Source: Bradyrhizobium sp. ISRA430 (GTDB lineage Bacteria; Pseudomonadota; Alphaproteobacteria; Rhizobiales; Xanthobacteraceae). Taken from it: 64,000 nt of DNA. Each line of letters begins with the position of its first letter. The first letter of the stretch is position 1. Under the pieces are notes generated by a model. It ran no database searches. It saw only the letters and a program-made list of their open reading frames with translations, and was not told where the DNA came from. The translations under genes and the position numbers were made by a program. Of this stretch, positions 24,077 through 60,991 are shown in pieces. The DNA is taken from contig NZ_CP094516.1 of the NCBI RefSeq assembly GCF_029909975.1, forward strand, positions 4,588,001 to 4,652,000. Direction: 5' to 3'.

Positions 24077-24454
24077 TCAGCCGTAGTAGCGCCAGCGCGA
24101 CGGCGGCGGGCGGCGCGCAGGACGCGAGATCAGCAAGGCGAGCGCAAAGCCGATGCCGCCGGCGATCAAGAGCGCGCCGAGCGGATTGTCCTGCACCCTC
24201 TTGGCGATGGCCTGCGTGCCGTCGCGGAACGTGTCGCCGCTCGCCTCATAGGCATCTTTTGCGTAGCTGGTGGCGGTGTTCGCTGCTTCGCGCGCCGTGT
24301 CCTTTGCCTGGCCGTACAGGTTCTGCACCGTGCCGGCAGCCTCGCGTGCCCGGCCTGACGCTTGCGTCTTTGCATCTCCCGCCATCTCACCCACGGTACC
24401 TTCCACGCCGCCCGCCATTTCCTTGGCCGATCCGATAATCCGATCCGGGTCCAT
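24077..24454 (-). CDS. CsbD-family stress protein with C-terminal membrane segment
   Basis: A 125-residue protein. The start at 24454 is preceded by a strong GGAGGA ribosome binding site. The N-terminal CsbD-like part reads MDPDRIIGSAKEMAGGVEG; a helical Ala/Thr-rich stretch follows (AKDTAREAANTATSYAKD), then one membrane segment (GALLIAGGIGFALALLI) and a basic tail. It resembles a CsbD-YqjD hybrid. CsbD proteins are general stress proteins of unknown biochemical role. A near-consensus sigma-EcfG promoter lies 29 bases upstream (24484-24508), so general stress control is likely. Confidence 0.85.
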   Translation of the reverse strand: MDPDRIIGSAKEMAGGVEGTVGEMAGDAKTQASGRAREAAGTVQNLYGQAKDTAREAANTATSYAKDAYEASGDTFRDGTQAIAKRVQDNPLGALLIAGGIGFALALLISRPARRPPPSRWRYYG

Positions 24455-24483: not shown

Positions 24484-24508
24484 AACCGATCAGGCTGAGC
24501 GCGGTTCC
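24484..24508 (-). promoter_or_regulatory. Sigma-EcfG-type promoter of the CsbD gene
   Basis: On the minus strand GGAAC is followed after 16 bases by GGTT; the consensus is GGAAC-N16/17-CGTT, so one base of the -10 element differs. The -10 element is 29 bases from the start codon. Confidence 0.65.
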
Positions 24509-48735: not shown

Positions 48736-48760
48736 GGAACGGCGGCGCGCCGGTCGCGTT
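48736..48760 (+). promoter_or_regulatory. Sigma-EcfG promoter of the second CsbD gene
   Basis: An exact GGAAC (48736-48740), 16-base spacer and CGTT (48757-48760) lie 29 bases before the CsbD start. Confidence 0.85.
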
Positions 48761-48789
48761 GTCCGGCCATCAACCGATTGGAGATGGTC

Positions 48790-48990
48790 ATGGACTGGAA
48801 TCGGATCGAAGGAAACTGGAAGCAGTTCAAGGGCTCGGCCAAGGAGAAGTGGGGCAAGCTCACTGACGATGACCTCAGGCTGATCGAGGGCCGTCGCGAA
48901 CAACTCGAAGGCCGGCTCCAGGAACGCTACGGCAGAGCCAAGGACCAGGTTCGTCAGGACGTCGACGACTGGCTCAAGTCGCTGCACTAG
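48790..48990 (+). CDS. CsbD-family general stress protein
   Basis: A 66-residue protein. The ATG at 48790 is used because GGAG lies seven bases before it; an ATG two codons upstream overlaps that site. The sequence MDWNRIEGNWKQFKGSAKEK then WGKLTDDDLRLIEGRREQLE is the textbook CsbD pattern. It is short, charged and probably helical, without membrane segments. CsbD proteins are induced by general stress. An exact sigma-EcfG promoter precedes it and a strong terminator follows 14 bases after the stop. Confidence 0.95.
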   Translation: MDWNRIEGNWKQFKGSAKEKWGKLTDDDLRLIEGRREQLEGRLQERYGRAKDQVRQDVDDWLKSLH

Positions 48991-49004
48991 AGCGGCATGC
49001 AACC

Positions 49005-49032
49005 AGCCCCGGCGCACGCCGGGGCTTTTTTG
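49005..49032 (+). terminator. Rho-independent terminator after CsbD
   Basis: The stem AGCCCCGGCG-cac-GCCGGGGCT (wobble-free ten pairs or close) is followed by TTTTTGTT, 14 bases after the CsbD stop. Confidence 0.93.
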
Positions 49033-49068
49033 TTGGAAGGCTCGTAGCTGCGCCGATGAATCCATCAT

Positions 49069-49234
49069 CGTCGTCCTGGGCAAGCGAGCGCTTGGCAACG
49101 CGCAGCGTTGTCCAATAGCGAGCGCCGATCCAGGACCCATTACCACCGCTCTGCGTGCTAGCACACTTGCTGCTCGCAGTGCCGCGCCGCAACTGAATCC
49201 TGGGGTAATGGGTCCTGGCTTTCGCCAGGACGAC
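49069..49234. repeat. Long intergenic repeat, family B
   Basis: It begins CGTCGTCCTGGGCAAGCGAG and ends GGTCCTGGCTTTCGCCAGGA followed by CGAC. Its first 75 bases nearly match the element at 28949-29109, including CTTGGCAACGCGCAGCGTTG. Confidence 0.85.
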
Positions 49235-49267
49235 ATCGAACAAATTGAGCTTGGATTCGCTGCTCCG

Positions 49268-49423
49268 CTAGAACACCGTGAGATATTTCAGCAGCGACAC
49301 GACACCGATAATGATGACGATGATGCGCGCAATCTGCTTGGCGCGGCCATCCATCGGCAGCATGTTGATGAGATAAAGAACGAGAATAACGACGAGAAAG
49401 GTGACAAGTACGCCGATCAGCAT
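49268..49423 (-). CDS. Small membrane protein, Thivi_2564-like family
   Basis: A 51-residue protein read leftward from the ATG at 49423, preceded by GAAGGGGG eight bases away. The sequence has one hydrophobic segment, MLIGVLVTFLVVILVLYLIN, then a conserved-looking loop MLPMDGRAKQIAR and a second hydrophobic segment IIVIIIGVVSLLKYL. The pattern (two helices joined by LPxDGRAKQI) matches the family named Thivi_2564, of unknown function. A sigma-EcfG promoter with a 17-base spacer lies 37 bases upstream, which predicts stress induction. Confidence 0.88.
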   Translation of the reverse strand: MLIGVLVTFLVVILVLYLINMLPMDGRAKQIARIIVIIIGVVSLLKYLTVF

Positions 49424-49460
49424 TGCAAAGCCCCCTTCAGGCGATTCCTAACGATGTCCT

Positions 49461-49486
49461 AACGCGAGCCACGCATTCCCGGTTCC
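49461..49486 (-). promoter_or_regulatory. Sigma-EcfG promoter of the 51-residue membrane protein
   Basis: On the minus strand, an exact GGAAC (49482-49486), a 17-base spacer and CGTT (49461-49464) end 37 bases before the start at 49423. Confidence 0.85.
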
Positions 49487-49690
49487 ACGTCGGCAAGTCA
49501 CTGCAATTTCCGGTTGCCAAGCCGGCGTCGGGCGGAGCGCTCGCAGAATTCACCGGTAACGATCTGTTAAGCCCGCGACTTGTCCGCTCTCCGCGCACAA
49601 GTCGCAGGCTTCGTCGAGCACGTAACGTGCGCGTTACAGGTCTATTTATCCCTTTTTGCGAAAAAATGCGGGGTTCGGGGGGATTCCATC

Positions 49691-51787
49691 ATGCTTCGAC
49701 GTCTGACTGTTTCGGCGCTGCTCCAGTCCGTCATCGCACTTCTCGCCGCTTGCGTGGTGGCGCTGCTGGTAACGACCGCCTGGCAATCCTGGGAGCGGCT
49801 GCGCGCGACCGGCCACATCGCGGCCGTCGCCGAGGCCTCCGCAAATGCCTTCAAGGCGATGCACAATCTGCGCACCGACCGCTCGTCGACGCCCCGGGTG
49901 CTGAACGGCGAGGCGCCGGTGTCACCCGAGATCGAAAAATTCCTCCGTGGCATTCACGACGCCGAGGTGCCGGCGATCCGCGCCACCGCTGCGCTGCTGC
50001 CGTCGATCCCGTTCGCCGAGGAGGCGACGCTGCTGGATCAGTTGAACCGGCAACTCGACAAGCTGGGGGCGCTCCAGACCGAAGCCTGGGACGAGATGCG
50101 TAAGCCGAAGAAGGCGCGGCGGGCGGCGCTGTCGAAGGAGTACACGGACCAGACCGGCGCACTGCTCGGAACGCTCGAGACGATCTCGGCGCGACTGACC
50201 GCAGTCGTCAATCACAACGATCCGCTGATCGACCAGCTCCTGTCGATCAAGCAGGCCGCCTGGCTCTTGCGCAATACCGCTGGCGAGGCCTCGGACCTCG
50301 TCGCCAGCGGGTTGGTCGCGACCGGGAGCCTGCCGCTGGAAGCGCAGCAGACCTACACCAAATCCGTCGGCGCGATCGAGAACGCATGGAGCGGGCTGGA
50401 ATCCTCGACCTTGGGCATGAAGCTGTCTCCGGAGCTCGCCAGCGCGATGGGCGCGGCCAAGGCCGCCTATTTCAATCCGGACTATCTCGCGCTACGCGAC
50501 CGGCTGATCGACCAGATCATGGTCGGCTCGAAAACCGACATGAGCGCCGATCAGTGGACGCCGCTGACCTCGCAGCGCATGGGCACCGCGGTCGCGGTGG
50601 CCGAGCGCGCGCTCGACGAGGCCCGCGACGATTCTGCCGTCCAGTACGCGGCGGCGGGTCGTGCGCTCGCGGTGCAGCTCGCGATGCTGCTGTTCGCAAT
50701 ACTGCTGACGGCCGGCGCGATGATCACGGTCACCCGCCGCGTCATCCGCCCCCTGCACAATATCCGTGACGCCGTGCTCAAGGTCGCTGGCGGCGACCTG
50801 ACGGTCGACAGCGGCTATCTCGACCGCCAGGACGAGATCGGCGCGCTCGCCGGCGCGCTGGAGACATTCAAGCAGCAGGCGGCCGACAAGCTGAGAATCG
50901 AGGCGCAGGAGCGCGAGCACAATTCGGTCGCGGCAGCGCGTCAACGGGCAATCGAGCTTCATGTCGGCGAGTTCGAGGGCATGGTGCGCAACACCCTCGA
51001 CCGGCTAAACCAGGCCTCGGGCGAGATGCGCAAGACCTCTTCAGAACTCTCCGCGGTCTCGCGTCAGACCAACGAACGGGTACAGATGGCCGGCAAGGCC
51101 TCAGGCGACGCCTCCATGAGCGTCGACAGCGTCGCTTCGGCGGCCGAGGAGCTCAGCGCCTCGATCAACGATATCAGCCAGCAGGCCGCGCATGCCGCAG
51201 GGATCGCCGGCCGCGCCGTCAGCCAGGCGCGCGAGACCGACGGCACCGTGCAGGGCCTGGCGAAGTCTGCCGGGCGTATCGGCGAGGTCGTCGGCCTGAT
51301 CAACACCATCGCGGCCCAAACCAACCTGCTGGCGCTCAACGCCACGATCGAGGCGGCGCGCGCCGGCGAGGCAGGCCGCGGCTTTGCGGTGGTTGCATCC
51401 GAGGTGAAGTCGCTGGCGAGCCAGACGGCGAAAGCGACCGAGGAGATCTCCGAGCAGATCGCCGACATCCAGAGGGTCGCGGGCGACGCCATCAACGCGA
51501 TCCAGGCAATCGGCGGTATCATCGGCGAGGTCAACGAGGTTGCCACCGCCATCGCCGCCGCCGTGCAGGAACAAGGTGCGGCAACGCAGGAGATCACCCG
51601 CAGCACGCAATATGCGGCGCAGGGCACCAAGAACGTCTCGGACAACATCACCGGCGTCAAAGCCGACGCCGACACCGCGGCCGGCGCGGCGGAGAACGTG
51701 AGACAGGCTTCGGAGATGCTGGAAACCCAGAGCCATCAGCTCGACCAGCAGGTCAGCGACTTCCTCGGCAAGATCCGGGCGGCGTAG
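49691..51787 (+). CDS. Methyl-accepting chemotaxis protein
   Basis: A 698-residue chemoreceptor; the start at 49691 follows GGGGGATTCC. It has a membrane segment at residues 10-32 and another near 325-345 enclosing a large helical periplasmic domain (possibly 4HB/long type). A HAMP domain follows ([24 protein letters not shown]), then the MCP signalling helix pair with the hairpin tip [20 protein letters not shown] and [20 protein letters not shown]. There is no C-terminal CheR-binding pentapeptide. The ligand is unknown. No che genes are nearby. Confidence 0.94.
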
Positions 51788-51812
51788 GGCGCGGCGGCGT
51801 CACACCCTCAGT

Positions 51813-51890
51813 GTCGTCCCGGCGAAGGCGGAGATTGAGGCGGGAGTGTCGCAACTCACGCGACGTCGTCCTGGCGAAAGCCAGGACGAC
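51813..51890. repeat. Short intergenic repeat, family B
   Basis: GTCGTCCCGGCGAAGGCGG and CGTCGTCCTGGCGAAAGCCA followed by GGACGAC are a compact version of the family B ends. It lies between convergent genes. Confidence 0.7.
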
Positions 51891-51927
51891 GGTGGAGCGA
51901 TGACCCGACCGCCCTACCCCACCGTCC

Positions 51928-52584
51928 CTACTCCTTCGCGACCACCGGCAGATGGCGGAATTTGGCGCGGACCTTCGCCGGCAGCGGGGAGAAGTTCATC
52001 GCGCCGCCACCGCGATCGTCGGCGTTGCGATTGGCGACGACCAGGCCGTTCCGGCCGGCGACGATGTCGCCCTTGCGCAACGTCGGGTCGTCCTCGACCT
52101 TGACCGGCGCGAGTCCGACCGTGTCCTTGCCGTTACAGGTGCAGCCCGTCACGATCTCGTTGCGATAGCGGAATGCGTTCGGCAGGTCGGAATAGGATTG
52201 TCCGCTGTCGGTCGTGGCGTCGTCGATGTTGCTGCCATAGACCAGCGAAGTTTCCGCGGCCGGGCAAAAGCTCTTGCAGGATTGCGCCTTGCTCTCGGCG
52301 TCATTCCCTTGCGCCGGGAAGTAGCGTCCGTCGCAACCGCGCACGCAATAGGCCGCGCCGCCGCCGTAGACCGCCCGCGAGCGTGGTGTGTCGTAACGCG
52401 GCATGTCGTCGGTCGGGAACGGCAACTGGATCTGTGGCGGCGGCCGCAGGCGGAAACCGCCGAACAGCGCCGAGAAGAAATCCTCCGCATACGCTGGCGG
52501 CGTCGTCAGCGCGAGGCTGAGGGAGGCGGCGGCAAATAGCGCCGCCGCGGTCAGGGCCGGTTTGCTGATCGAACGTCTCGTCAT
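51928..52584 (-). CDS. DUF2865 family exported protein
   Basis: A 218-residue protein with a signal peptide ending near PPAYAEDF. The Cys-rich centre is characteristic: AAYCVRGCDGRYFPAQG, SKAQSCKSFCPAAETSLVYG and VTGCTCNGKDT, which fits DUF2865. The Cys probably form periplasmic disulfides. The function is unknown. It follows the L,D-transpeptidase gene by 22 bases on the same strand, so both are probably transcribed from the same sigma-EcfG promoter, and a cell-wall role is plausible. Confidence 0.88.
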   Translation of the reverse strand: MTRRSISKPALTAAALFAAASLSLALTTPPAYAEDFFSALFGGFRLRPPPQIQLPFPTDDMPRYDTPRSRAVYGGGAAYCVRGCDGRYFPAQGNDAESKAQSCKSFCPAAETSLVYGSNIDDATTDSGQSYSDLPNAFRYRNEIVTGCTCNGKDTVGLAPVKVEDDPTLRKGDIVAGRNGLVVANRNADDRGGGAMNFSPLPAKVRAKFRHLPVVAKE

Positions 52585-52606
52585 GCGACCTCATGTACTC
52601 TTCAGT

Positions 52607-53389
52607 TCACGACGACGCCGAGATGTTCAGGGCCTGGCGGCCGGAAGGCTGCGTCGTCACCGCCGGGCGCTTGCGCACGGGATCGCCGCTCCTGTCGCCC
52701 CCGCTTCCCTTGGCCATCAGCGGCGCGTTCTTCGGCAGCACCACGACCCTGGCGCCGAGATTGACGCGGCCGAACAGGTCGATGACGTCCTCGTTGGTCA
52801 TGCGGATGCAGCCGGAGGAGACGAACTTGCCGATCGTGGTGGGATCGTTGGTGCCGTGGATCCGGTATTCGCTCGAGCCGAGATATATCGCGCGTGCGCC
52901 GAGCGGATTGCCCGGGCCACCGGCGACGAAACGCGGCAGATAGGGCTGGCGCGCGATCATCTGGGCCGGCGGATGCCAGTCCGGCCATTCCGCCTTGCGC
53001 GCGACGTTCTGCACGCCCGACCAGGTGAAGCCCTCGCGGCCGACACCGACGCCATAGCGAATGGCGCGGCCGTTGCCGAGCACATAATAGAGATAGGTGT
53101 TGCCGGTATCGATGACGATGGTACCGGCCGGCTCGCTGCGGTCGAAGCTGACGATCTGCCGGCGAAGGCGCTCGGGCAGCGCGGTATCGTCGGAGGTTTG
53201 CGGCTCCTCGCTCAGGGTGGCCTGCGGAGCAGCCTGGCCGTGCGAATACGCCAGCGGCTGCATCGGCGCATAACCGAACATCTGGGCGTGCGCGGCGCCG
53301 AACGGCGCGGTCAACAATGCGGTCGCGAAGGCAAGCGCGGTGGCGGCGCGCGGCGAGAAGCGGCGGCGGACTGCAGATAACTTTGTCAT
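52607..53389 (-). CDS. L,D-transpeptidase (YkuD family)
   Basis: A 260-residue exported enzyme. The start at 53389 is preceded by GGGG six bases away; an ATG four codons upstream has no ribosome binding site. The signal peptide ends near GAAHAQMF. The YkuD domain has the catalytic HGTNDPTTIGKFVSSGCIRM with Cys in SSGCIRM. It forms 3-3 cross-links in peptidoglycan or attaches proteins to it. A sigma-EcfG promoter is located 51 bases upstream, so wall remodelling under stress is expected. DUF2865 follows 22 bases on. Confidence 0.94.
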   Translation of the reverse strand: MTKLSAVRRRFSPRAATALAFATALLTAPFGAAHAQMFGYAPMQPLAYSHGQAAPQATLSEEPQTSDDTALPERLRRQIVSFDRSEPAGTIVIDTGNTYLYYVLGNGRAIRYGVGVGREGFTWSGVQNVARKAEWPDWHPPAQMIARQPYLPRFVAGGPGNPLGARAIYLGSSEYRIHGTNDPTTIGKFVSSGCIRMTNEDVIDLFGRVNLGARVVVLPKNAPLMAKGSGGDRSGDPVRKRPAVTTQPSGRQALNISASS

Positions 53390-53440
53390 GTGCTGCCCCA
53401 TGGGATGTGTGCATCTGGGTGATGACGCACTGCCCCAACA

Positions 53441-53466
53441 AACGCCGCGGGACCGACTCAGGTTCC
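53441..53466 (-). promoter_or_regulatory. Sigma-EcfG promoter of the L,D-transpeptidase gene
   Basis: On the minus strand, GGAAC (53462-53466), a 17-base spacer and CGTT (53441-53444) are exact and lie 51 bases before the start at 53389. Confidence 0.87.
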
Positions 53467-53525
53467 GAGGCCCTTTGCGGCAGCGACGTCACAGTCAAGC
53501 GAGTGCTTCTTCGCGAAGGCGCGAC

Positions 53526-53550
53526 GGAACCCACATACGCCTGGCGCGTT
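53526..53550 (+). promoter_or_regulatory. Sigma-EcfG promoter of the AI-2E-family permease gene
   Basis: GGAAC (53526-53530), a 16-base spacer and CGTT (53547-53550) are exact and lie 52 bases before the GTG start at 53603. It points away from the L,D-transpeptidase promoter 60 bases to the left. Confidence 0.87.
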
Positions 53551-53602
53551 GTGGCTTCATCAATGGGCGCGCGGAGCAGATTTTCCGTGCGGGAGAGGTA
53601 TT

Positions 53603-54718
53603 GTGCGCGTCCTTCCCAGTGAACGTCTCATTCCCGGCAACGGCGAGGGCGCACCACTTTCCGACAGCCACCGCGAGCTGCCGCCCATCATCCGTCGTAC
53701 CGAGTTCGTCGCGTTTGCGCTGGCGGGGCTGCTGGTGATTGCGATCGCCGCCGTGCTGTATGTCGGCAAGGCGTTCTTCCTGCCCGTCGTGATGGCCTTC
53801 GTCACCGGCACGATGCTGTCGCCGGCGGCGAGCTTCCTGGAGCGGCGGAAGGTACCGCGCGCGCTCGGCGCGGTGCTGATCGTGATCGCGGTGACCACCG
53901 TCGTCGCCTTCGTCGTCGCGCTGATCGCCTCGCCGGCGATGGAGTGGCGCTCGCGCCTGCCGGAATTGGGTGCGGAGCTGAAGGAGAAGCTGCACGTCTT
54001 CGATCGGCCGCTCGCGTTCTGGCAGGAGCTGCAGACGATGGTCGGCGGCAGCCCGGATGGGCTGCCGAGCTTCCAGATGCCGAAATTTGAATGGGTGCAG
54101 CCGACGCTGGAATTCCTGTCACCGACCTTCACCGAATTCCTGTTGTTCTTCGCCACCCTGATCCTGTTCATCGCGAGCTGGCGCGACCTGCGGCGGGCGC
54201 TGATCATGACTTTCAGCGACCACGACGCGCGACTGCGCACGCTTCGGATCCTCAACGAGATCGAGATTCATCTCGGCAATTACCTCTTGACCGTGACCGT
54301 CATCAATATCGGCGTCGGCATCGCCACCGGGATCGTCTGCGCGCTCACCGGCATGCCCAATCCCGCCGGGCTCGGCGCACTCGCCGCGACGCTGAACTTC
54401 ATCCCGATCATCGGGCCGATCGCGATGTTCGCGGTGCTGGTGGTGGTGGGGCTTGTCGCCTTCCCGACCATCGGCGGCGGCCTCGCCGCCGCGCTCGCCT
54501 TCGGCGGCATCACCTTCATGGAAGGGCACTTCGTCACGCCGACGATCATCGGCCGGCACCTGGCGCTGAACGCACTGGCCGTCCTGCTCGCGCTGGCGTT
54601 CTGGACTTGGATGTGGGGACCGGTTGGCGCCTTCCTGTCGTCGCCGCTGCTGATCGTCGCCCTGATCGTGAAGGAGCATCTTTTGCCGGCGGATTCGCCG
54701 CAGCTTCCGCAGGACTGA
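53603..54718 (+). CDS. AI-2E transporter family permease
   Basis: A protein of about 371 residues with eight predicted membrane segments of the AI-2E (PerM/YdiK) family. The GTG at 53603 follows GGGAGAGG; the longer frame starting at 53549 is impossible as an mRNA start because it lies inside the sigma-EcfG -10 element. Membrane stretches include FVAFALAGLLVIAIAAVLY near the start and FLLFFATLILFIASW in the middle; the C-terminal TPTIIGRHLALNALAVLLAL is typical. Members export AI-2 or act as Na/H antiporters, so the substrate is open. The YqjD-like gene follows. Confidence 0.88.
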   Translation: MRVLPSERLIPGNGEGAPLSDSHRELPPIIRRTEFVAFALAGLLVIAIAAVLYVGKAFFLPVVMAFVTGTMLSPAASFLERRKVPRALGAVLIVIAVTTVVAFVVALIASPAMEWRSRLPELGAELKEKLHVFDRPLAFWQELQTMVGGSPDGLPSFQMPKFEWVQPTLEFLSPTFTEFLLFFATLILFIASWRDLRRALIMTFSDHDARLRTLRILNEIEIHLGNYLLTVTVINIGVGIATGIVCALTGMPNPAGLGALAATLNFIPIIGPIAMFAVLVVVGLVAFPTIGGGLAAALAFGGITFMEGHFVTPTIIGRHLALNALAVLLALAFWTWMWGPVGAFLSSPLLIVALIVKEHLLPADSPQLPQD

Positions 54719-54733
54719 CCGGTTTCCGGTAAC

Positions 54734-54758
54734 GGAACTTACGCGATGGCGAAACGTT
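54734..54758 (+). promoter_or_regulatory. Sigma-EcfG promoter of the YqjD/YqjE-like operon
   Basis: GGAAC (54734-54738), a 16-base spacer and CGTT (54755-54758) are exact and lie 38 bases before the start at 54797. An in-frame ATG at 54746 falls inside the spacer and cannot be the start of the main transcript. Confidence 0.87.
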
Positions 54759-54796
54759 TCCCGGTCATCTCAGCCGCCAACAATTCGGAGCTCGTG

Positions 54797-55168
54797 ATGT
54801 CGACGACCAATGGCGAAACCGGGATGAGCGACTGGACCGACAAAGCCACCAGAGAACGCCTCGAGAAGGATGTAGCAGCCGTGAAAAGCGATATCGCAAC
54901 CCTCACAGAACAGATCACCGATGCGCTCAACACCTTCGCCAATTCCGCCGGCAAGCAGGCGCGGCGCGGCTATCGCCAGGCGCGCCAGAACATGGATTCG
55001 ACGATGGAGGACATGTCGGACCGCGGCAGCGCGATGATGGACGCTGCACAGGACGCCTACGGCTCGATCGAGGAGACGCTGGAGGACGCGATCACGCAGC
55101 GCCCGCTCGCGACCGTCGGGCTCGCACTCGGCATCGGCTTCCTGATCGGCATCGCCTGGCGTCGCTGA
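54797..55168 (+). CDS. DUF883/YqjD-like membrane-anchored stress protein
   Basis: A 123-residue protein from the ATG at 54797, which has GGAG six bases before it; the longer start at 54746 lies within the promoter. The N-terminal half is a predicted coiled-coil (RLEKDVAAVKSDIATLTEQI), a basic middle follows (KQARRGYRQARQN), and a C-terminal membrane anchor ends LALGIGFLIGIAWRR. This is the ElaB/YqjD architecture; in E. coli those proteins tie ribosomes to the membrane in stationary phase. The YqjE-like gene lies 79 bases downstream. Confidence 0.85.
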   Translation: MSTTNGETGMSDWTDKATRERLEKDVAAVKSDIATLTEQITDALNTFANSAGKQARRGYRQARQNMDSTMEDMSDRGSAMMDAAQDAYGSIEETLEDAITQRPLATVGLALGIGFLIGIAWRR

Positions 55169-55247
55169 CGATGCGGAACGACCGTTCATTGAATTGATGG
55201 CGGCGCTCCGCGCCGCCGCCGGCGTGTGGGGGTTGAGGAGCAAGGCC

Positions 55248-55703
55248 ATGTTTCAGCGCATCATCGACAGCATCAGCGCCTCGACCGGCACGACGCTGCG
55301 GCTGACCTCGCTTGCTGCAGGCGCCGCCCTCGCGCTCTTCATCACGACAAGCTTCCTGTGCGCGGCAGCGTTCATCGCGGTCCTGGAGAAATATGGTCCG
55401 GTGCAGGCGTGCCTCACCGGCGCCGGGGTCTTCTTCCTGCTCACGCTCGCAGCGGCCGGCACGTATTTGGGCTACAAGCGGGCCGTGGAGAATCGCGCCC
55501 GCATCGCCGCCGAGCGCGCAGCGAAGTCGGCGGCGCACAGCATGCTGGCCGATCCCATGCTGCTCGCAACCGGGCTTCAGATCGTCCGTGCCATCGGCGT
55601 CAAGCGCCTGCTGCCGATCCTGGCCATCGGCGGCGTCGCGCTCGGAATCTTGGCGAGCCGCGCTGGCGCGCCTGAAGACGCCTCGGCCGAGCCGGCCGAA
55701 TGA
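55248..55703 (+). CDS. YqjE-like membrane protein (holin-superfamily-like fold)
   Basis: A 151-residue protein starting at 55248 after GAGGAG. Two strong membrane segments, SLAAGAALALFITTSFLCAA and CLTGAGVFFLLTLAAAGTYL, are joined by a short loop; a third hydrophobic stretch near the end is LLPILAIGGVALGILASR. The arrangement and its place after a YqjD-type gene suggest a YqjE/Phage_holin_3_6-like protein. The holin name reflects family resemblance only; no phage genes are present. The role is unknown. Confidence 0.75.
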   Translation: MFQRIIDSISASTGTTLRLTSLAAGAALALFITTSFLCAAAFIAVLEKYGPVQACLTGAGVFFLLTLAAAGTYLGYKRAVENRARIAAERAAKSAAHSMLADPMLLATGLQIVRAIGVKRLLPILAIGGVALGILASRAGAPEDASAEPAE

Positions 55704-55794
55704 ACGCCAGAGCAAATTGAATACGACCTATTGCTCAGGTACCTCTCCCGAGCGGGAAAAGGTGAACCGCGTTCTTGGCTCGCAACGAGCGGTA

Positions 55795-56187
55795 TCAGGT
55801 CACGCAGCGACCAGGCTGAAGCAGCTTTGCGACCTCGGTGAGCGAACTCACCATCGGCTCGCAGGCGACCGTCGGCTTGCTGCGACCCTGCTTCTGCAGC
55901 AGAAGCGAAGGCTTGGCGTTGCCGGTCTCGATTACCGCAGGAACCCGCAGCAGGATCGACGTGTCGGCGAGATCGTTGAGCCGCATCGAGACGGTCCGGG
56001 TGGAAACCGCCGCCGGCTTCGGCTCGGCGAGCCGATCCGCCTTGCCGGCACGATTGACGAGGTGGCCTGGCTTGTCGGAAATCGCCTGCCAGCGGTCGGC
56101 GAGATCATGGCCGGAGGCCAACTGCACTGCACCAAGCGTCGCGGCAATTGCGACGGCGCTCAAAAATACCTTTTGAATCTGTGACAT
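55795..56187 (-). CDS. Hypothetical exported protein
   Basis: A 130-residue protein from the ATG at 56187, with GAGGGA about ten bases before it. A signal peptide MSQIQKVFLSAVAIAATLGAV is visible, cleaved perhaps after LASG. The mature part has TVSMRLNDLADTSILLRVP and ends in a Cys-containing VACEPMVSSLTEVAKLLQPG plus RCVT. The Cys pair may form a disulfide. I do not recognise the family. It is convergent with the YqjE-like gene, with a 91-base gap. Confidence 0.75.
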   Translation of the reverse strand: MSQIQKVFLSAVAIAATLGAVQLASGHDLADRWQAISDKPGHLVNRAGKADRLAEPKPAAVSTRTVSMRLNDLADTSILLRVPAVIETGNAKPSLLLQKQGRSKPTVACEPMVSSLTEVAKLLQPGRCVT

Positions 56188-56387
56188 GAGTGTTCGTCCC
56201 TCGCCCCATGGCGATCGACGGAACAACGCTGCCGGAATGTCCGAAGTTCTTGGCTGTTACGATCACTTAACCGTGTGCGAAAAAATCGCGGGGTGCAAAA
56301 AATCTTGGAATGGCTTGGAACGACTTTCGCGCCTGGGAGTCGTCTCAGCAGCCGGTTATTCCCCCCTGCCCCATAAACCGGCGACGT

Positions 56388-56426
56388 AGGGCGCGACTGT
56401 GGTGATGCCAGTCGCGCCTTACTTTT
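56388..56426 (+). terminator. Hairpin, possible terminator
   Basis: AGGGCGCGACTG and CAGTCGCGCCTT form a stem of at least ten pairs with a nine-base loop, followed on the plus strand by ACTTTTATC. On the minus strand it lies just after the NTF2-like gene but has no T-run there. The direction is therefore uncertain. Confidence 0.4.
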
Positions 56427-56441
56427 ATCTGCGGCTGACTT

Positions 56442-57062
56442 TCATGTGCGGCCTACGTGGCCTTCCTTGGCCTTCGCGACAAGCCACTCGCGTCCCTCGG
56501 CATAAAGCTTCTCGACCTCGGCGCCGGTCAGGCCCGGCATGTCGCGCTTGACCTTGTAGCCGATCAGCTCCTGCATGTAGGCGAGGTGGCGGTAGCCCTC
56601 GGGCAGTGCCGCCAGAGCGTGCGCATCGAGGCGGAGCGTCGCCGACGGATCGACCGGATCGATCCGGTCTTTCTCGTAGATCGGCTGGCGGCGGACGATG
56701 CCCCATTTGCCTTGCCGCTTCTCCAGGAAATCATAGAAGCGCCCGGTGCAGACGACGTCGCAGAGCACGTCATGCACGGCCGCGCGCTGCGAGATGGTCA
56801 TCTTGGTCTGCGCGACGGCGCGCTCACCGGAGAGATCGATGCTGGTGCCGCCGAGGAAATGCAGGATGCGTACGCCCTTCGCAAAGCCTTCCTGGCTGAC
56901 GCGGATGAAATCCCTCGCCGGCCCCTGAAACCAGGTGGCGGACATCCAGCCTTCCTCATGCCAGACGGTGGCAAAGCGCTCCCAGTCGCCGGCATCGCGC
57001 CACACCGCCCAGTTCTCGACGAGGTCGCGGATGGCGAGGCGATCGAGCTGCGGCTGGTCCAT
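56442..57062 (-). CDS. Nuclear transport factor 2-like (SnoaL-type) protein
   Basis: A 206-residue protein from the ATG at 57062, preceded by GGAG eight bases away; a GTG two codons upstream has worse spacing. The NTF2-like cone is indicated by the start QLDRLAIRDLVENWAVWRDA, then WERFATVWHEEGWMSATWFQ and QTKMTISQRAAVHDVLCDVV plus TGRFYDFLEKRQGKWGIVRR. The C-terminal 60 residues are an extra helical part. Family members are dehydratases, isomerases or binding proteins, so the reaction is open. It reads towards the hairpin at 56388. Confidence 0.83.
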   Translation of the reverse strand: MDQPQLDRLAIRDLVENWAVWRDAGDWERFATVWHEEGWMSATWFQGPARDFIRVSQEGFAKGVRILHFLGGTSIDLSGERAVAQTKMTISQRAAVHDVLCDVVCTGRFYDFLEKRQGKWGIVRRQPIYEKDRIDPVDPSATLRLDAHALAALPEGYRHLAYMQELIGYKVKRDMPGLTGAEVEKLYAEGREWLVAKAKEGHVGRT

Positions 57063-57239
57063 GAACACGTCTCCGGTTGCCTAGCGGCCGCAACGCGGCT
57101 GCTCCACGAGGTATGAGCGATGCATTCGGTGGCCGTCAAGCGCGGTAAGCCGGCAACAAAAATCCGGCGCACCTTCGGCACGCCGGATCTGATCGTCATC
57201 AAGCGCCGAGGCGCCTTCCTTACGCTGCAGGCGCCTTCT

Positions 57240-58046
57240 CTACGCCGCCGGCGCCTTGGGCGTGCGGTTGCGCGAGTTGCGCTGGAAGAACAGCGCCTGG
57301 CTCGCCACTGCCGACACCATCGCTGGCTGGAACGGCTTTGAGATCAGGAACGCCGGCTCGGGGCGCTCGCCGGTGAGGAAGCGCTCCGGATAGGCGGTGA
57401 TGAACACCACCGGCACTTCGAAAGTGCGCAGGAGCTCGTTGACCGCATCGAGGCCCGAGGAGCCATCGGCGAGCTGGATGTCGGCGAGGATCAGGCCGGG
57501 CCGCTTGTTCTTGGCGAGCGCCACCGCATCCGAATGGGTGCGGGCGACACCGACGACGTTGTGGCCGAGATTCTTCACCAGACTCTCGAGGTCCATGGCG
57601 ATGAAGGTCTCGTCCTCGATGATCAGCACATCCGTAGCGATCTCGGCCGCCATCTCGCGTCCCGCGGCGTCGGCGAGCCGGCGTGTCTCCGCAACATCGG
57701 TATTGAGGATGTAGGCGACCTCCTCTTCGGAGAATCCTTCGAGCGACAGCAGCAGGAATGCCTGCCGCGGCAGCGGCGTGATGTTCGACAGCCGCCGCTC
57801 GGGCGGCATCGGCAAGGGCGTGACCTCGGCGTCGTCGTTGACGGAGACCGAATTCCATATCTGGGTGAACAGCCGGAACAGGCCGGCCCGTGGTCCGTGG
57901 CTCTCGTCGAGCACCGACGGATCCCCGAGCATGGCTTCCAACATGGCTGCGACGTAGGCGTCACCGGACGGCTGGCTGCCCGTCAGGGCACGTGCATACC
58001 GCCGCAATAACGGCAAGTGCTCAGCAACAAGCTGTGAACGGGACAT
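57240..58046 (-). CDS. phyR: General stress response anti-anti-sigma regulator PhyR
   Basis: A 268-residue response regulator. The start at 58046 follows GGAGTGGGG. The N-terminal half is a sigma-like domain (EHLPLLRRYARALTGSQPSG, ITPLPRQAFLLLSLEGFSEE, EVAYILNTDVAETRRLA); the C-terminal half is a receiver with acidic IIEDE and the phospho-acceptor Asp189 in ILADIQLADGSSG. When phosphorylated, PhyR binds NepR and releases sigma-EcfG. It is divergent from nepR-ecfG, and a near-consensus sigma-EcfG promoter (GGAAC-N16-CGTA) lies 78 bases upstream, so it should be autoregulated. Confidence 0.97.
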   Translation of the reverse strand: MSRSQLVAEHLPLLRRYARALTGSQPSGDAYVAAMLEAMLGDPSVLDESHGPRAGLFRLFTQIWNSVSVNDDAEVTPLPMPPERRLSNITPLPRQAFLLLSLEGFSEEEVAYILNTDVAETRRLADAAGREMAAEIATDVLIIEDETFIAMDLESLVKNLGHNVVGVARTHSDAVALAKNKRPGLILADIQLADGSSGLDAVNELLRTFEVPVVFITAYPERFLTGERPEPAFLISKPFQPAMVSAVASQALFFQRNSRNRTPKAPAA

Positions 58047-58124
58047 CCCCACTCCATTCATCTTCGGGCCAATCCGCACGAGACCCACACAAGGGCGGCC
58101 CGGACCTCCCCTGCTCGCCCAGTC

Positions 58125-58149
58125 TACGCCCGAACTCAAGAAAAGTTCC
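58125..58149 (-). promoter_or_regulatory. Sigma-EcfG-type promoter of phyR
   Basis: On the minus strand GGAAC (58145-58149) is followed by a 16-base spacer and CGTA (58125-58128). It differs from the consensus -10 by one base and ends 78 bases before phyR. Confidence 0.75.
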
Positions 58150-58158
58150 GGGACGGCT

Positions 58159-58183
58159 GGAACTTTTCCTCCGCCCTTGCATT
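58159..58183 (+). promoter_or_regulatory. Sigma-EcfG-type promoter of nepR-ecfG
   Basis: GGAAC (58159-58163), a 16-base spacer and CATT (58180-58183), again one base off consensus, lie 99 bases before nepR. Its -35 box is the mirror of the phyR -35 box, the pair forming GTTCC-gggacggct-GGAAC. Confidence 0.7.
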
Positions 58184-58260: not shown

Positions 58261-58294
58261 AGGTCATGAAAGATCTCAGGTCATGAAAGATCTA
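58261..58294 (+). repeat. Tandem 17-base duplication across the nepR start
   Basis: AGGTCATGAAAGATCTC (58261-58277) is followed immediately by AGGTCATGAAAGATCTA (58278-58294). Both copies contain an ATG with the same ribosome-binding context. The second ATG starts nepR; the first opens a six-codon frame. Confidence 0.9.
58266..58286 (+). CDS. Six-codon leader peptide upstream of nepR (possible)
   Basis: The ATG at 58266 reads MKDLRS and stops at TGA 58284-58286, which overlaps the nepR ATG at 58283 as ATGA. It arises from the 17-base tandem duplication. Ribosomes starting at the first ATG would terminate exactly at the nepR start, which could couple or limit nepR translation. Whether it is translated is unknown. 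Confidence 0.35.
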   Translation: MKDLRS

Positions 58295-58513
58295 AAGTCT
58301 CAAGCAAGCAAGAACACGACCCCCGGCAAGGGTGGCCTCACGCCGGAGATTCAATCTCGGATTGGGCACCAGTTGCGCGCCATGTACGACGATGTCGTGC
58401 GGCAGGGCGTTCCCGACCGGTTCGCGGAGCTTATCAAAAAGCTTGATGCGCCGGGAGCGACACCCCAGGTGGAAAACGATGGGGGAACCAATGACAACAA
58501 TGGGAGGGACTAA
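58283..58513 (+). CDS. nepR: Anti-sigma factor NepR
   Basis: A 76-residue protein that holds sigma-EcfG inactive and is itself titrated by phosphorylated PhyR. The NepR core is clear: GGLTPEIQSRIGHQLRAMYD followed by DVVRQGVPDRFAELIKKLDA, two helices that wrap around the sigma factor. The N-terminus is Lys-rich and flexible. The start at 58283 gives MKDLKSQASKN and is the second copy of a duplicated start region. Its stop overlaps the ecfG start (TAATG), so the anti-sigma and sigma factors are translationally coupled. Confidence 0.95.
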   Translation: MKDLKSQASKNTTPGKGGLTPEIQSRIGHQLRAMYDDVVRQGVPDRFAELIKKLDAPGATPQVENDGGTNDNNGRD

Positions 58514-59061
58514 TGCCCCTCACGGAATCCCTGCGCGACGACATCCTGGCGGCCGTGCCGAGCCTGCGCGCCTTCGCCATCTCACTCAGCGGCAACGCTG
58601 ATCGCGCCGACGACCTGGTGCAGGAAACGCTGCTGCGGGCGCTCGCCAACATCGACTCGTTCCAACCCGGCTCCAACCTGCCGGCGTGGCTGTTTACGAT
58701 CCTGCGCAACCTGTTCCGCTCCGACTATCGCAAGCGGCGGCGGGAGGTGGAGGATGCGGAAGGCAACTACGCCAAGACACTGAAGACGCAGCCGTCGCAG
58801 AACGCGCATCTCGAGTTCGAGGAGTTTCGCGCGGCGCTCGACAAGCTTCCGCAGGACCAGCGCGAAGCACTGATCCTGGTCGGCGCCTCCGGCTTCTCCT
58901 ATGAGGACGCGGCCTCGATCTGCGGCTGCGCGGTCGGCACGATCAAGAGCCGTGTCAACCGCGCCCGCTCGAAGCTCGCGGCCCTGCTCTATGTCGACGG
59001 CGCCGAGGATTTCGGCCCGGACGAGACCGTGCGCGCCGTGATCGGCGGCAGCGGCGGCTAG
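58513..59061 (+). CDS. ecfG: General stress response sigma factor EcfG
   Basis: A 182-residue extracytoplasmic-function-type sigma factor. Region 2 has RAFAISLSGNADRADDLVQE (with the DDLVQETLLRALANI helix) and FTILRNLFRSDYRKRRREVE. Region 4 has LPQDQREALILVGASGFSYE and DAASICGCAVGTIKSRVNRA. It directs RNA polymerase to GGAAC-N16/17-CGTT promoters, several of which lie in this window. The ATG at 58513 overlaps the nepR stop. A perfect 14-pair hairpin lies 30 bases after the stop. Confidence 0.95.
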   Translation: MPLTESLRDDILAAVPSLRAFAISLSGNADRADDLVQETLLRALANIDSFQPGSNLPAWLFTILRNLFRSDYRKRRREVEDAEGNYAKTLKTQPSQNAHLEFEEFRAALDKLPQDQREALILVGASGFSYEDAASICGCAVGTIKSRVNRARSKLAALLYVDGAEDFGPDETVRAVIGGSGG

Positions 59062-59299: not shown

Positions 59300-60991
59300 C
59301 TAGCGCACCGGCCGCACCGGTGCCGAAAATTTCTCGGTGCGATCGCGCTCCGTCATGTCGACGACCGTCTCCATCGGCGCGGTCAGCTCGTAGATGTAGG
59401 AGGCGTCGGTGAAGTAGCGCTTGGCGGTGCCGCCGAGTGCTTCAGGGGCGACTCGATCGAGCAGGATCAAACCGAAATCGGAATCGGGGCGGCGCGTCGC
59501 TTCGCTGGTGTTGAGCTCCTCCCAGCGGAAATGGAACATCTCCTCGCCCTCTTCGCCCGTCACCGTCCAGTTCGCCGTGATGTGCGGATGCTTGCCGACC
59601 AGCGACAGCCCCTCGTCGGAATGCGAAGCGAGCTCGAAGAACAGCAGCGAGAGGCTTTGCGCTGCGCGCGCACTCACCGCGATGTCGGGCCCGCTGACGG
59701 CAATGCGATCGGCATGCGGGATGGCGCGCGCCTCGAACAGGCCCTTCAGCTTGACACCCTGCCACTGGCTCTCGCTCAGCAGCGAGACGACGTTGGACAT
59801 GGCGTGAATGCGGCCGATCAGCAGCTCGCGCGCGACGTCGATATCGGAGCCGTGGCGCAGCGTGCGCGTCACGATCGACTGGATCACAGCCAGGATGTTC
59901 TTGACGCGATGGTTCAGCTCGTCGATCACCGCCGTCAGCCGACGCTCGAAGCCGATCCGCACCTGGATTTCCCGGCTGAGCCGCAAATTGTTGTAGGCGA
60001 CATATCCGAACAGGCCGCACACCATCGCCGTGATGGCGAAACCGATCGCCGCGACGATGATGGCTGTCTGCTCGGCGCGCCGTGCCGAATTGGTCTTCGC
60101 GTAATAGCTGAGCTGCCAATCGCGGCCGCCGAAGCTCAGCGTGCGCGTTGCCGACCGCGCCGGTCCGTCGGCTGAGGCCATGCGTGTGGAGACCACGCCC
60201 TGGTCATTGGCCACGAGCTCGCCGCCATCCTTGCGCGGATCCTTCAGCGCGACGGAGAACAACGACATGTCGTCGTTGGTCAGCATCAGCGAGGCGAGCT
60301 CGTAGGAAAACGTGATGAAGCCCGCCGGCTCGGTCGCGCCTTCGGGAATCACGGGCGCGGCCACGATGACTCCGACTGGCCCGTTGCCGCGCAGCAGCGG
60401 GACCGGGTCGGAGGCAACCGACCTCTTCTCGACCCTGGCACGTGCCAGCATGGCGCTGAGAACCGGATCCTGGTCGTAGCTGCGGCCAGGCAGCGCCTTG
60501 GTCTCGTCGCTCCGCGGCTCGAGGTCCAACAGCACGTCAATCGGCTGGGTGACGGTGGCCGGATCGATCGGCTTGTCATCGTAGGTGCGGATCTTCGCAT
60601 TTGGAAAGCCCGCGCCCGCGATCGCCGCCTGCGCCGCGGCCAGCTCGTTCGGCTTGAGGCGGGCGATCCAGCCGGCCACCACGAAATCGGTCTTGAAGGC
60701 GTAAATGGCCGAGCGCAGCGGCTCCAGCATGTTGGGCTTGATCACGGACGGCGCGCGGAACAGGCCCGAGGCGACACGCGCAAGCAGCTCACGCTCGGTC
60801 AGCCGGTCCTGGACCAGGCTCGCGTGAACGTCGATTGCGCGCGCCAGCGCGATGCGGTCGAGCGCCAGCTCCTGGTCGTGAACGCGATAGGCCGCGAGCC
60901 CGGAGAGCAGGACTCCGAGCAGAGCGATGAAGCCGATGATGAAACCCAGCCGGACCACGCGACTACTCAGGAGAAGGTGGGAAGTCGGCAA
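59300..60991 (-). CDS. CHASE-domain HWE-type kinase homologue with degenerate ATP site (PhyP-like)
   Basis: A 563-residue membrane sensor. Membrane segments are near residues 13-35 and 306-330; between them lies a CHASE-type periplasmic sensor. The dimerisation/phospho-acceptor region has the HWE/HisKA_2 motif DELNHRVKNILAVIQSIVTR with His361. In the ATPase domain the N-box, normally HELATNAxKYG, reads FFELASHSDEG (449-461): both the His and the Mg-binding Asn are lost, and the G-box reads DFGLILLDR. ATP binding is therefore doubtful. In Sphingomonas, the similar PhyP next to phyR is a phosphatase of PhyR. The gene's place beside phyR-nepR-ecfG supports the same role here. Confidence 0.88.
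   Translation of the reverse strand: MPTSHLLLSSRVVRLGFIIGFIALLGVLLSGLAAYRVHDQELALDRIALARAIDVHASLVQDRLTERELLARVASGLFRAPSVIKPNMLEPLRSAIYAFKTDFVVAGWIARLKPNELAAAQAAIAGAGFPNAKIRTYDDKPIDPATVTQPIDVLLDLEPRSDETKALPGRSYDQDPVLSAMLARARVEKRSVASDPVPLLRGNGPVGVIVAAPVIPEGATEPAGFITFSYELASLMLTNDDMSLFSVALKDPRKDGGELVANDQGVVSTRMASADGPARSATRTLSFGGRDWQLSYYAKTNSARRAEQTAIIVAAIGFAITAMVCGLFGYVAYNNLRLSREIQVRIGFERRLTAVIDELNHRVKNILAVIQSIVTRTLRHGSDIDVARELLIGRIHAMSNVVSLLSESQWQGVKLKGLFEARAIPHADRIAVSGPDIAVSARAAQSLSLLFFELASHSDEGLSLVGKHPHITANWTVTGEEGEEMFHFRWEELNTSEATRRPDSDFGLILLDRVAPEALGGTAKRYFTDASYIYELTAPMETVVDMTERDRTEKFSAPVRPVR

Follow-up and report, generated by a model that had tools for sequence, protein, structure and literature searches.

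We analysed a 64,000-nucleotide stretch of the Bradyrhizobium sp. ISRA430 genome (contig NZ_CP094516.1, positions 4,588,001 to 4,652,000), hereafter the window, which carries a phyR-nepR-ecfG core and, around it, candidate target genes of the encoded extracytoplasmic function (ECF) sigma factor, sigma-EcfG. Gene families were assigned by profile scans with Pfam and NCBIfam (Table 1). The core encodes PhyR with its sigma-like and receiver domains, NepR and the ECF sigma factor, and nepR-ecfG is transcribed divergently from phyR. A nearby block includes csbD and the genes for a 51-residue membrane protein, an L,D-transpeptidase (ldt), an AI-2E family transporter and a DUF883 protein. The original prediction, made from the letters of the window, described eight upstream sites matching GGAAC-N16/17-CGTT exactly or with one mismatch. 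We found all five exact sites at the coordinates and on the strands claimed, and the three one-mismatch sites were present and conserved as well. A ninth site, upstream of a small gene whose product looks exported by eye, had been overlooked. The distances of 29 to 99 bp between sites and gene starts agree with our measurements provided that the second ATG of csbD is its start, as the first ATG would leave 23 bp.

In the window the exact motif occurs five times, compared with 0.85 matches expected (standard deviation 0.86), which is close to the one chance match per 64 kb assumed originally, and a count of five was reached in none of 100 dinucleotide shuffles. In the genome-wide search that had been proposed as a check of the clustering, the five sites lie within 6.0 kb, form the tightest group of the genome and occupy its only span that short with five sites (P ~0.0014 under uniform scatter). 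The relaxed motif GAAC-N16/17-(C/G)GTT matched 12 times in the window versus 5.7 expected, and 12 matches were reached in 2 of 100 shuffles. Across the whole 8.56-Mb genome the exact motif was counted 185 times (181 distinct sites once palindromic pairs are merged) and the reversed-pattern control 175 times. Since the genome as a whole shows no enrichment of the exact motif, a lone match means little and conservation has to decide. Sites with at most one mismatch numbered 28 with the N16 and 9 with the N17 spacing, each against 12.9 expected. Therefore, such a site was accepted only with conservation support, which all three sites of the original prediction have.

For the comparison with relatives, the loci were a manual rather than a random selection that favoured long contigs and PhyR identity, namely 20 from 60 genus, 20 from 61 family, 20 from 81 order and 20 from 143 class genomes; at the cut-offs used, PhyR was matched in 46 of the 81 order and 29 of the 143 class genomes. 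Further block and core loci of the same genus were added later. The phyR neighbourhoods covered 20 kb (two family and three class loci were shorter), and gene starts in the relatives were taken from tblastn alignments. Motifs were counted in 200 bases upstream of each orthologue; duplicates, orthologues with less than 40% identity in the genus or 36% in the near family, and upstream regions shorter than 200 bases were dropped. Pooled over the five target promoters, the exact motif was present in 111 of 125 upstream regions of the genus, whereas for six comparison genes (malate synthase, methyl-accepting chemotaxis protein (MCP), SnoaL, ecfG, kinase and ureG) the pooled count was 5 of 150. In the near family the targets had 23/37 exact sites versus 3/43 for the comparison genes. 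The reversed control gave 0 in every group for the exact motif and up to 4/31, at AI-2E, for the relaxed one. Taken singly, the exact site was kept in genus and near family at the DUF883 gene (29/29 and 6/6), the gene of the 51-residue protein (25/25 and 6/9), csbD (12/13 and 4/4) and ldt (24/27 and 7/9), while the AI-2E permease gene was the weakest of the five with 21/31 in the genus. Spacer identity to the window among the exact sites was low (medians 0.31-0.62 by gene), which indicates that the motif stays while its surroundings change.

Several other promoters keep a motif variant of their own across the genus: GGTT at a second csbD, CGTA at phyR, CATT or AATT at nepR and AGAAC at the small gene. 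In the phyR-nepR intergenic alignment of 32 rows (the window and L031-L061) two GGAAC boxes stand back to back, and both the GGAACTTTT on the phyR side and the GGAAC on the nepR side are invariant. The -10 boxes stay non-consensus in the genus and the near family, mostly CGTA at phyR and mostly CATT or AATT at nepR. A phyR site within one mismatch was found in 16/20 genus and 20/20 family loci (control 0), and the order set showed exact CGTT sites at phyR in 11/20 and at nepR in 10/14 loci. The second csbD encodes a 125-residue protein with a CsbD domain and a DUF883-type glycine-zipper tail; an orthologue was present in 16 of 20 relatives searched, 15 of which kept the GGTT form. The small gene has orthologues in the genus and the near family, where GAAC-N16/17-(C/G)GTT is kept in 23/34 (control 0) and 8/10 loci (control 1), respectively; Pfam and NCBIfam scans of its product gave no match. 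The form GAAC-N16,17-C/GGTT is the consensus given for Methylobacterium extorquens in PMC4814048, and for Sphingopyxis granuli the account in PMC7083833 describes a flexible -10 and a nearly invariant AAC at -35.

Two genes without a conserved site of their own are probably second genes of operons, the DUF2865 gene behind ldt and the 'YqjE-like' gene behind the DUF883 gene. Own exact sites in the genus are rare at the former (2/29) and were not found at the latter (0/29), as expected for such positions. The name 'YqjE-like' stems from the original prediction, and its product matched no Pfam or NCBIfam family above the cut-off. Moreover, an MCP-type chemoreceptor gene (49694-51787) and a SnoaL-like gene lie within the cluster without a site, the former being missing in several relatives. 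Both were rejected as targets, with exact sites in 0/22 and 0/25 genus loci. The CHASE-HWE kinase gene was not accepted as an EcfG target either (0/28 genus, 2/10 near family). In the window and 12 near relatives a GGCAC...CGTT sequence stands 17 bp before its aligned start and the spacer is conserved too; this sequence is absent from L035, L122, L128, L139, L181, L195 and L197 as well as from the genus outgroups. The ureG gene had an exact site in 2/27 genus loci.

Table 1. Candidate sigma-EcfG-type sites and associated genes in the window (positions counted from its first letter).
Feature	Position	Strand	Evidence or remark
sigma-EcfG-type site of csbD	48736..48760	+	exact motif
csbD	48784..48990	+	Pfam CsbD 1.4e-23
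sigma-EcfG-type site of 51-aa membrane protein gene	49461..49486	-	exact motif
51-aa membrane protein, Thivi_2564 family	49268..49423	-	NCBIfam NF041949 4.5e-17; no Pfam match
sigma-EcfG-type site of ldt	53441..53466	-	exact motif
ldt, L,D-transpeptidase	52607..53401	-	Pfam YkuD 8.7e-23
DUF2865 protein gene	51928..52584	-	Pfam DUF2865 1.8e-34; 22-bp gap to ldt
sigma-EcfG-type site of AI-2E permease gene	53526..53550	+	exact motif
AI-2E family transporter	53603..54718	+	Pfam AI-2E_transport 1.3e-38; putative GTG start
sigma-EcfG-type site of DUF883 gene	54734..54758	+	exact motif
DUF883 (YqjD/ElaB type) protein	54797..55168	+	Pfam DUF883 1.7e-7
169-aa 'YqjE-like' protein	55194..55703	+	
Site of small-protein gene, AGAAC-N17-CGTT	56225..56250	-	not in the original prediction
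Small protein, exported-looking by eye	55795..56187	-	
phyR promoter site, GGAACTTTT...CGTA	58125..58149	-	one mismatch
phyR	57240..58061	-	PhyR_sigma2, PhyR_sigma-like, receiver domains
nepR-ecfG promoter site, GGAACTTTT...CATT	58159..58183	+	one mismatch
nepR	58283..58513	+	Pfam NepR 9.1e-16
ecfG	58513..59061	+	Sigma70_r2, Sigma70_r4_2
CHASE-HWE histidine kinase	59300..60991	-	Pfam HWE_HK 1.4e-23, CHASE 3.8e-9
Site of second csbD, GGAAC-N16-GGTT	24484..24508	-	one mismatch
Second csbD	24077..24454	-	Pfam CsbD 7.8e-14; DUF883_C 1.2e-5, just under its cut-off

The conservation of exact and one-mismatch sites argues for a real local sigma-EcfG regulon. We give a probability of about 0.88 to the reading that the window holds a canonical alphaproteobacterial general-stress-response core embedded in such a regulon. 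By the sequence evidence it comprises nine putative promoters and probably 12 genes; it is conserved in the genus and in nearby genera and is of a kind already known. At its members the motif stands upstream, in the right orientation and conserved at the orthologues, for the AI-2E permease gene only within the genus. Under stress, a kinase would phosphorylate PhyR, and phosphorylated PhyR would take NepR off sigma-EcfG, a partner switch described as established for the PhyR-NepR-EcfG family in PMC8103513 and presumably used at this locus as well. Sigma-EcfG would then transcribe from the nine sites csbD, the gene of the 51-residue protein, ldt-DUF2865, the AI-2E permease gene, DUF883-yqjE-like, the small exported-looking gene, phyR, nepR-ecfG and the second csbD. 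The genes, the sites, their conservation despite spacer divergence and the synteny were observed directly, while an envelope role of the targets is suggested by their families. The original description of a local regulon with mostly envelope targets stands in so far as the sites are footprinted and the genes belong mostly to membrane or envelope families; CsbD is not known as an envelope protein. Reading the set as a wall-reinforcement programme is plausible from the family names.

Several observations weigh against this interpretation. The exact motif shows no genome-wide excess over the reversed pattern (185 vs 175), and 11 exact sites fall within another 60-kb region of the same genome, at 4.264-4.324 Mb. 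The AI-2E site was found in 0/9 near-family loci, the ldt site in only 1/4 far-family loci (L067), and malate synthase, which is no candidate target, had an exact site in 3/15 genus loci. A consensus -10 is lacking at the phyR and nepR promoters in the genus, and one family match at phyR (L058) lies inside the gene itself. At nepR, sites within one mismatch were found in 14/20 genus and 16/20 family loci with control counts of 3 and 3, and two of these matches (L039, L052) are positioned elsewhere. As to the other dense region, its GC content is 0.595-0.616 versus 0.632 across 60 genome samples. In the stretches L161-L164, which cover 4.255-4.340 Mb of this genome (4.255-4.275 Mb and three 20-kb stretches from 4.28 Mb), 10 of 12 exact sites lie inside an open reading frame (ORF) of at least 100 residues, a location that is weak evidence in such DNA. 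One matched sequence of that region repeats at 6.736 Mb, which suggests repeated elements.

The clustering of a stress regulator with its targets had been regarded as unusual, and this view was not borne out. We compared the exact sites in 20 kb around phyR with each genome's own rate, excluding the sites of phyR, nepR and ecfG, in 63 of 66 genomes; G002, G005 and G021, which have split cores, were left out, and 7 of 70 corresponding loci had no genome count. All five groups were enriched 5.1- to 12.4-fold over the whole-genome rate: 47 sites versus 3.8 expected in linked genus members (10 genomes), 26 versus 3.0 in the near family (8), 23 versus 3.5 in the far family (8), 66 versus 6.5 in the order (20) and 25 versus 4.9 in the class (17). 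The enrichment was individually significant (P<0.01) in 29 of the 63 genomes and not in 34, six of all having no local site. Local clustering around phyR is common, not universal. In 49 far-family, order and class loci, density in successive 2-kb rings from phyR was 1.75, 1.91, 1.49, 1.12 and 0.12 sites per 10 kb (34, 37, 28, 21 and 2 sites; control 0, 5, 4, 1 and 2), and the enrichment fades by 8-10 kb. From 122 of these local sites, ORFs were picked mechanically (118 first and 28 second choices, some sites giving two); L069:6894-9170, L069:7286-9106, L070:8724-9179 and L071:9637-10782 were excluded. The 142 ORFs scanned included DUF1328 (10), CsbD (6), DUF883_C (6), HWE kinases (6), PRC-barrel (4), Crp-type regulators (4) and AI-2E (3). 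An old cluster that was shuffled and repeated assembly would both fit this class-wide pattern. We found no description of the enrichment in the parts of the open-licence literature consulted, outside which the main reviews lie, and it may already be in print. Together with the natural split described below, it is a more interesting result than the cluster itself.

The original prediction also took proximity as a sign of a coherent programme, which the genus does not support. In a search of 20 same-genus genomes, selected mostly for having no block at phyR, the two lay far apart in 15 of 17. In 12 genomes both were on one contig at a distance of about 0.95 to 2.2 Mb, and three drafts had the two parts on separate contigs (assigned by hand). 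Exact sites were kept at DUF883 in 15/15, at ldt in 13/15 and at AI-2E in 11/15 split genomes, and among the genes found at the gene of the 51-residue protein in 14/14 and at csbD in 6/6; csbD itself was not found within the fetched stretch in nine. Ten phyR loci lacking the block, among them L044 with its core ~30 kb from the block, held 3 exact sites in 200 kb, which equals the control of 3. Because most block promoters keep the motif in the 15 split genomes, linkage is not required for keeping the sites. The block adjoins phyR in 10/20 genus loci, and at least four block genes stand at phyR in 8/11 near-family loci. Therefore, linkage of block and core is probably ancestral.

At the break seen in most split genomes the small exported-looking gene and SnoaL moved together with phyR-nepR-ecfG, leaving the kinase beside the block. 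In genomes G017 and G047 the break lies between the small gene and SnoaL and is marked by a 28-bp sequence found in the window at 56399-56434. This sequence stands at both break ends in G017 (exact), and in G047 it is exact at one end and part of a longer match (31/32) at the other. A tyrosine integrase gene lies beside it in G017 (L035:6829-8166), and the sequence probably serves an integrative element as its attachment site. By eye it resembles a hairpin, yet a terminator scan did not call it. In three FastTree trees (block, core and kinase-ureG) the split genomes G047 and G017 form successive branches below a clade that unites the window with the remaining split genomes; for the G047 branch the core tree gives a support of only 0.38 and the kinase-ureG tree one of 0.77. 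The linked state of the window may be simply ancestral or regained. Alternatively, insertions may have recurred at a single site, because the 28-bp sequence marks the break in G017 and G047 and the integrase lies beside it in G017.

It is conceivable that the proximity itself is functional, so that promoters close to the sigma gene give a faster or stronger response and are held there by selection. The local enrichment in five groups and its decay with distance from phyR would fit this, but block and core are apart in 15 genomes which kept most sites, the ten separated phyR loci do not exceed their control, and the pattern is equally well accounted for by an old cluster that was inherited or shuffled. 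We therefore consider such selection quite unlikely. A broader proposal, in which the phyR core centres a class-wide local regulon of ~8 kb radius with a changing membership (CsbD, DUF883, AI-2E, DUF1328, PRC-barrel and others) and nearness to the sigma gene changes promoter response, also appears unlikely. The same-genus genomes with a core far from the block offer a ready natural experiment on proximity, and relatives with and without linkage make the effect of closeness to a stress sigma gene testable.

Alternatively, the promoters may be real and depend on a different ECF sigma factor or on an EcfG paralogue encoded elsewhere, the neighbourhood of this ecfG being incidental. According to the accounts in PMC7083833 and PMC8103513, ECF sigma factors have the AAC triplet at -35 in common, and promoters can be shared between EcfG paralogues. 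However, the full motif agrees with the sigma-EcfG consensus in the literature and is found again around phyR class-wide, which makes this explanation very unlikely. A purely random origin, with motif matches arising by chance in GC-rich DNA and clustering by statistical accident, is hardly credible: the genome-wide balance with the reversed pattern, the chance level of one-mismatch N17 sites and the separate region of 11 exact sites per 60 kb would fit it, but no other 6-kb stretch of the genome holds five sites, and the genus shows 111/125 versus 5/150 although spacers diverge. Chance is thereby rejected for the sites taken together, and singly conservation refutes it at csbD, the gene of the 51-residue protein, ldt and DUF883. 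With the local sigma-EcfG regulon as the preferred reading, the genes listed here, among them those for an L,D-transpeptidase and for small membrane proteins, are probable direct targets supported by footprinting.

The locus resembles the canonical ECF15 phyR/nepR-ecfG arrangement as described in PMC8103513, with the same three regulators, a divergent nepR-ecfG, an HWE kinase nearby and sigma-EcfG-type boxes in between. In contrast to that arrangement, both autoregulatory promoters keep a non-consensus -10 in the genus (CGTA; CATT/AATT), whereas CGTT is frequent in the order set. For Bradyrhizobium japonicum, a PhyR-EcfG cascade with a regulon of more than 100 genes was reported (Gourion 2009, as cited in PMC8092242). 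Similarly, the EcfG regulon described for S. granuli TFA in PMC7083833 includes csbD, a direct target with experimental support, and envelope-related genes, with GGAAC at -35, and the kinase gene adjoining phyR2 is given there as an EcfG target. Judging by the locus tags in that account, csbD of S. granuli (SGRAN_3063) lies away from the core (SGRAN_1161-1165), unlike in the window. In Rhizobium etli the conserved ecfG1-phyR region was described to contain ReC64, a small RNA gene that bears an EcfG1 motif (PMC3892343), so that a local EcfG target is already known. The local target described for R. etli is a non-coding RNA, whereas in Bradyrhizobium sp. ISRA430 it would be a block of membrane-protein genes.

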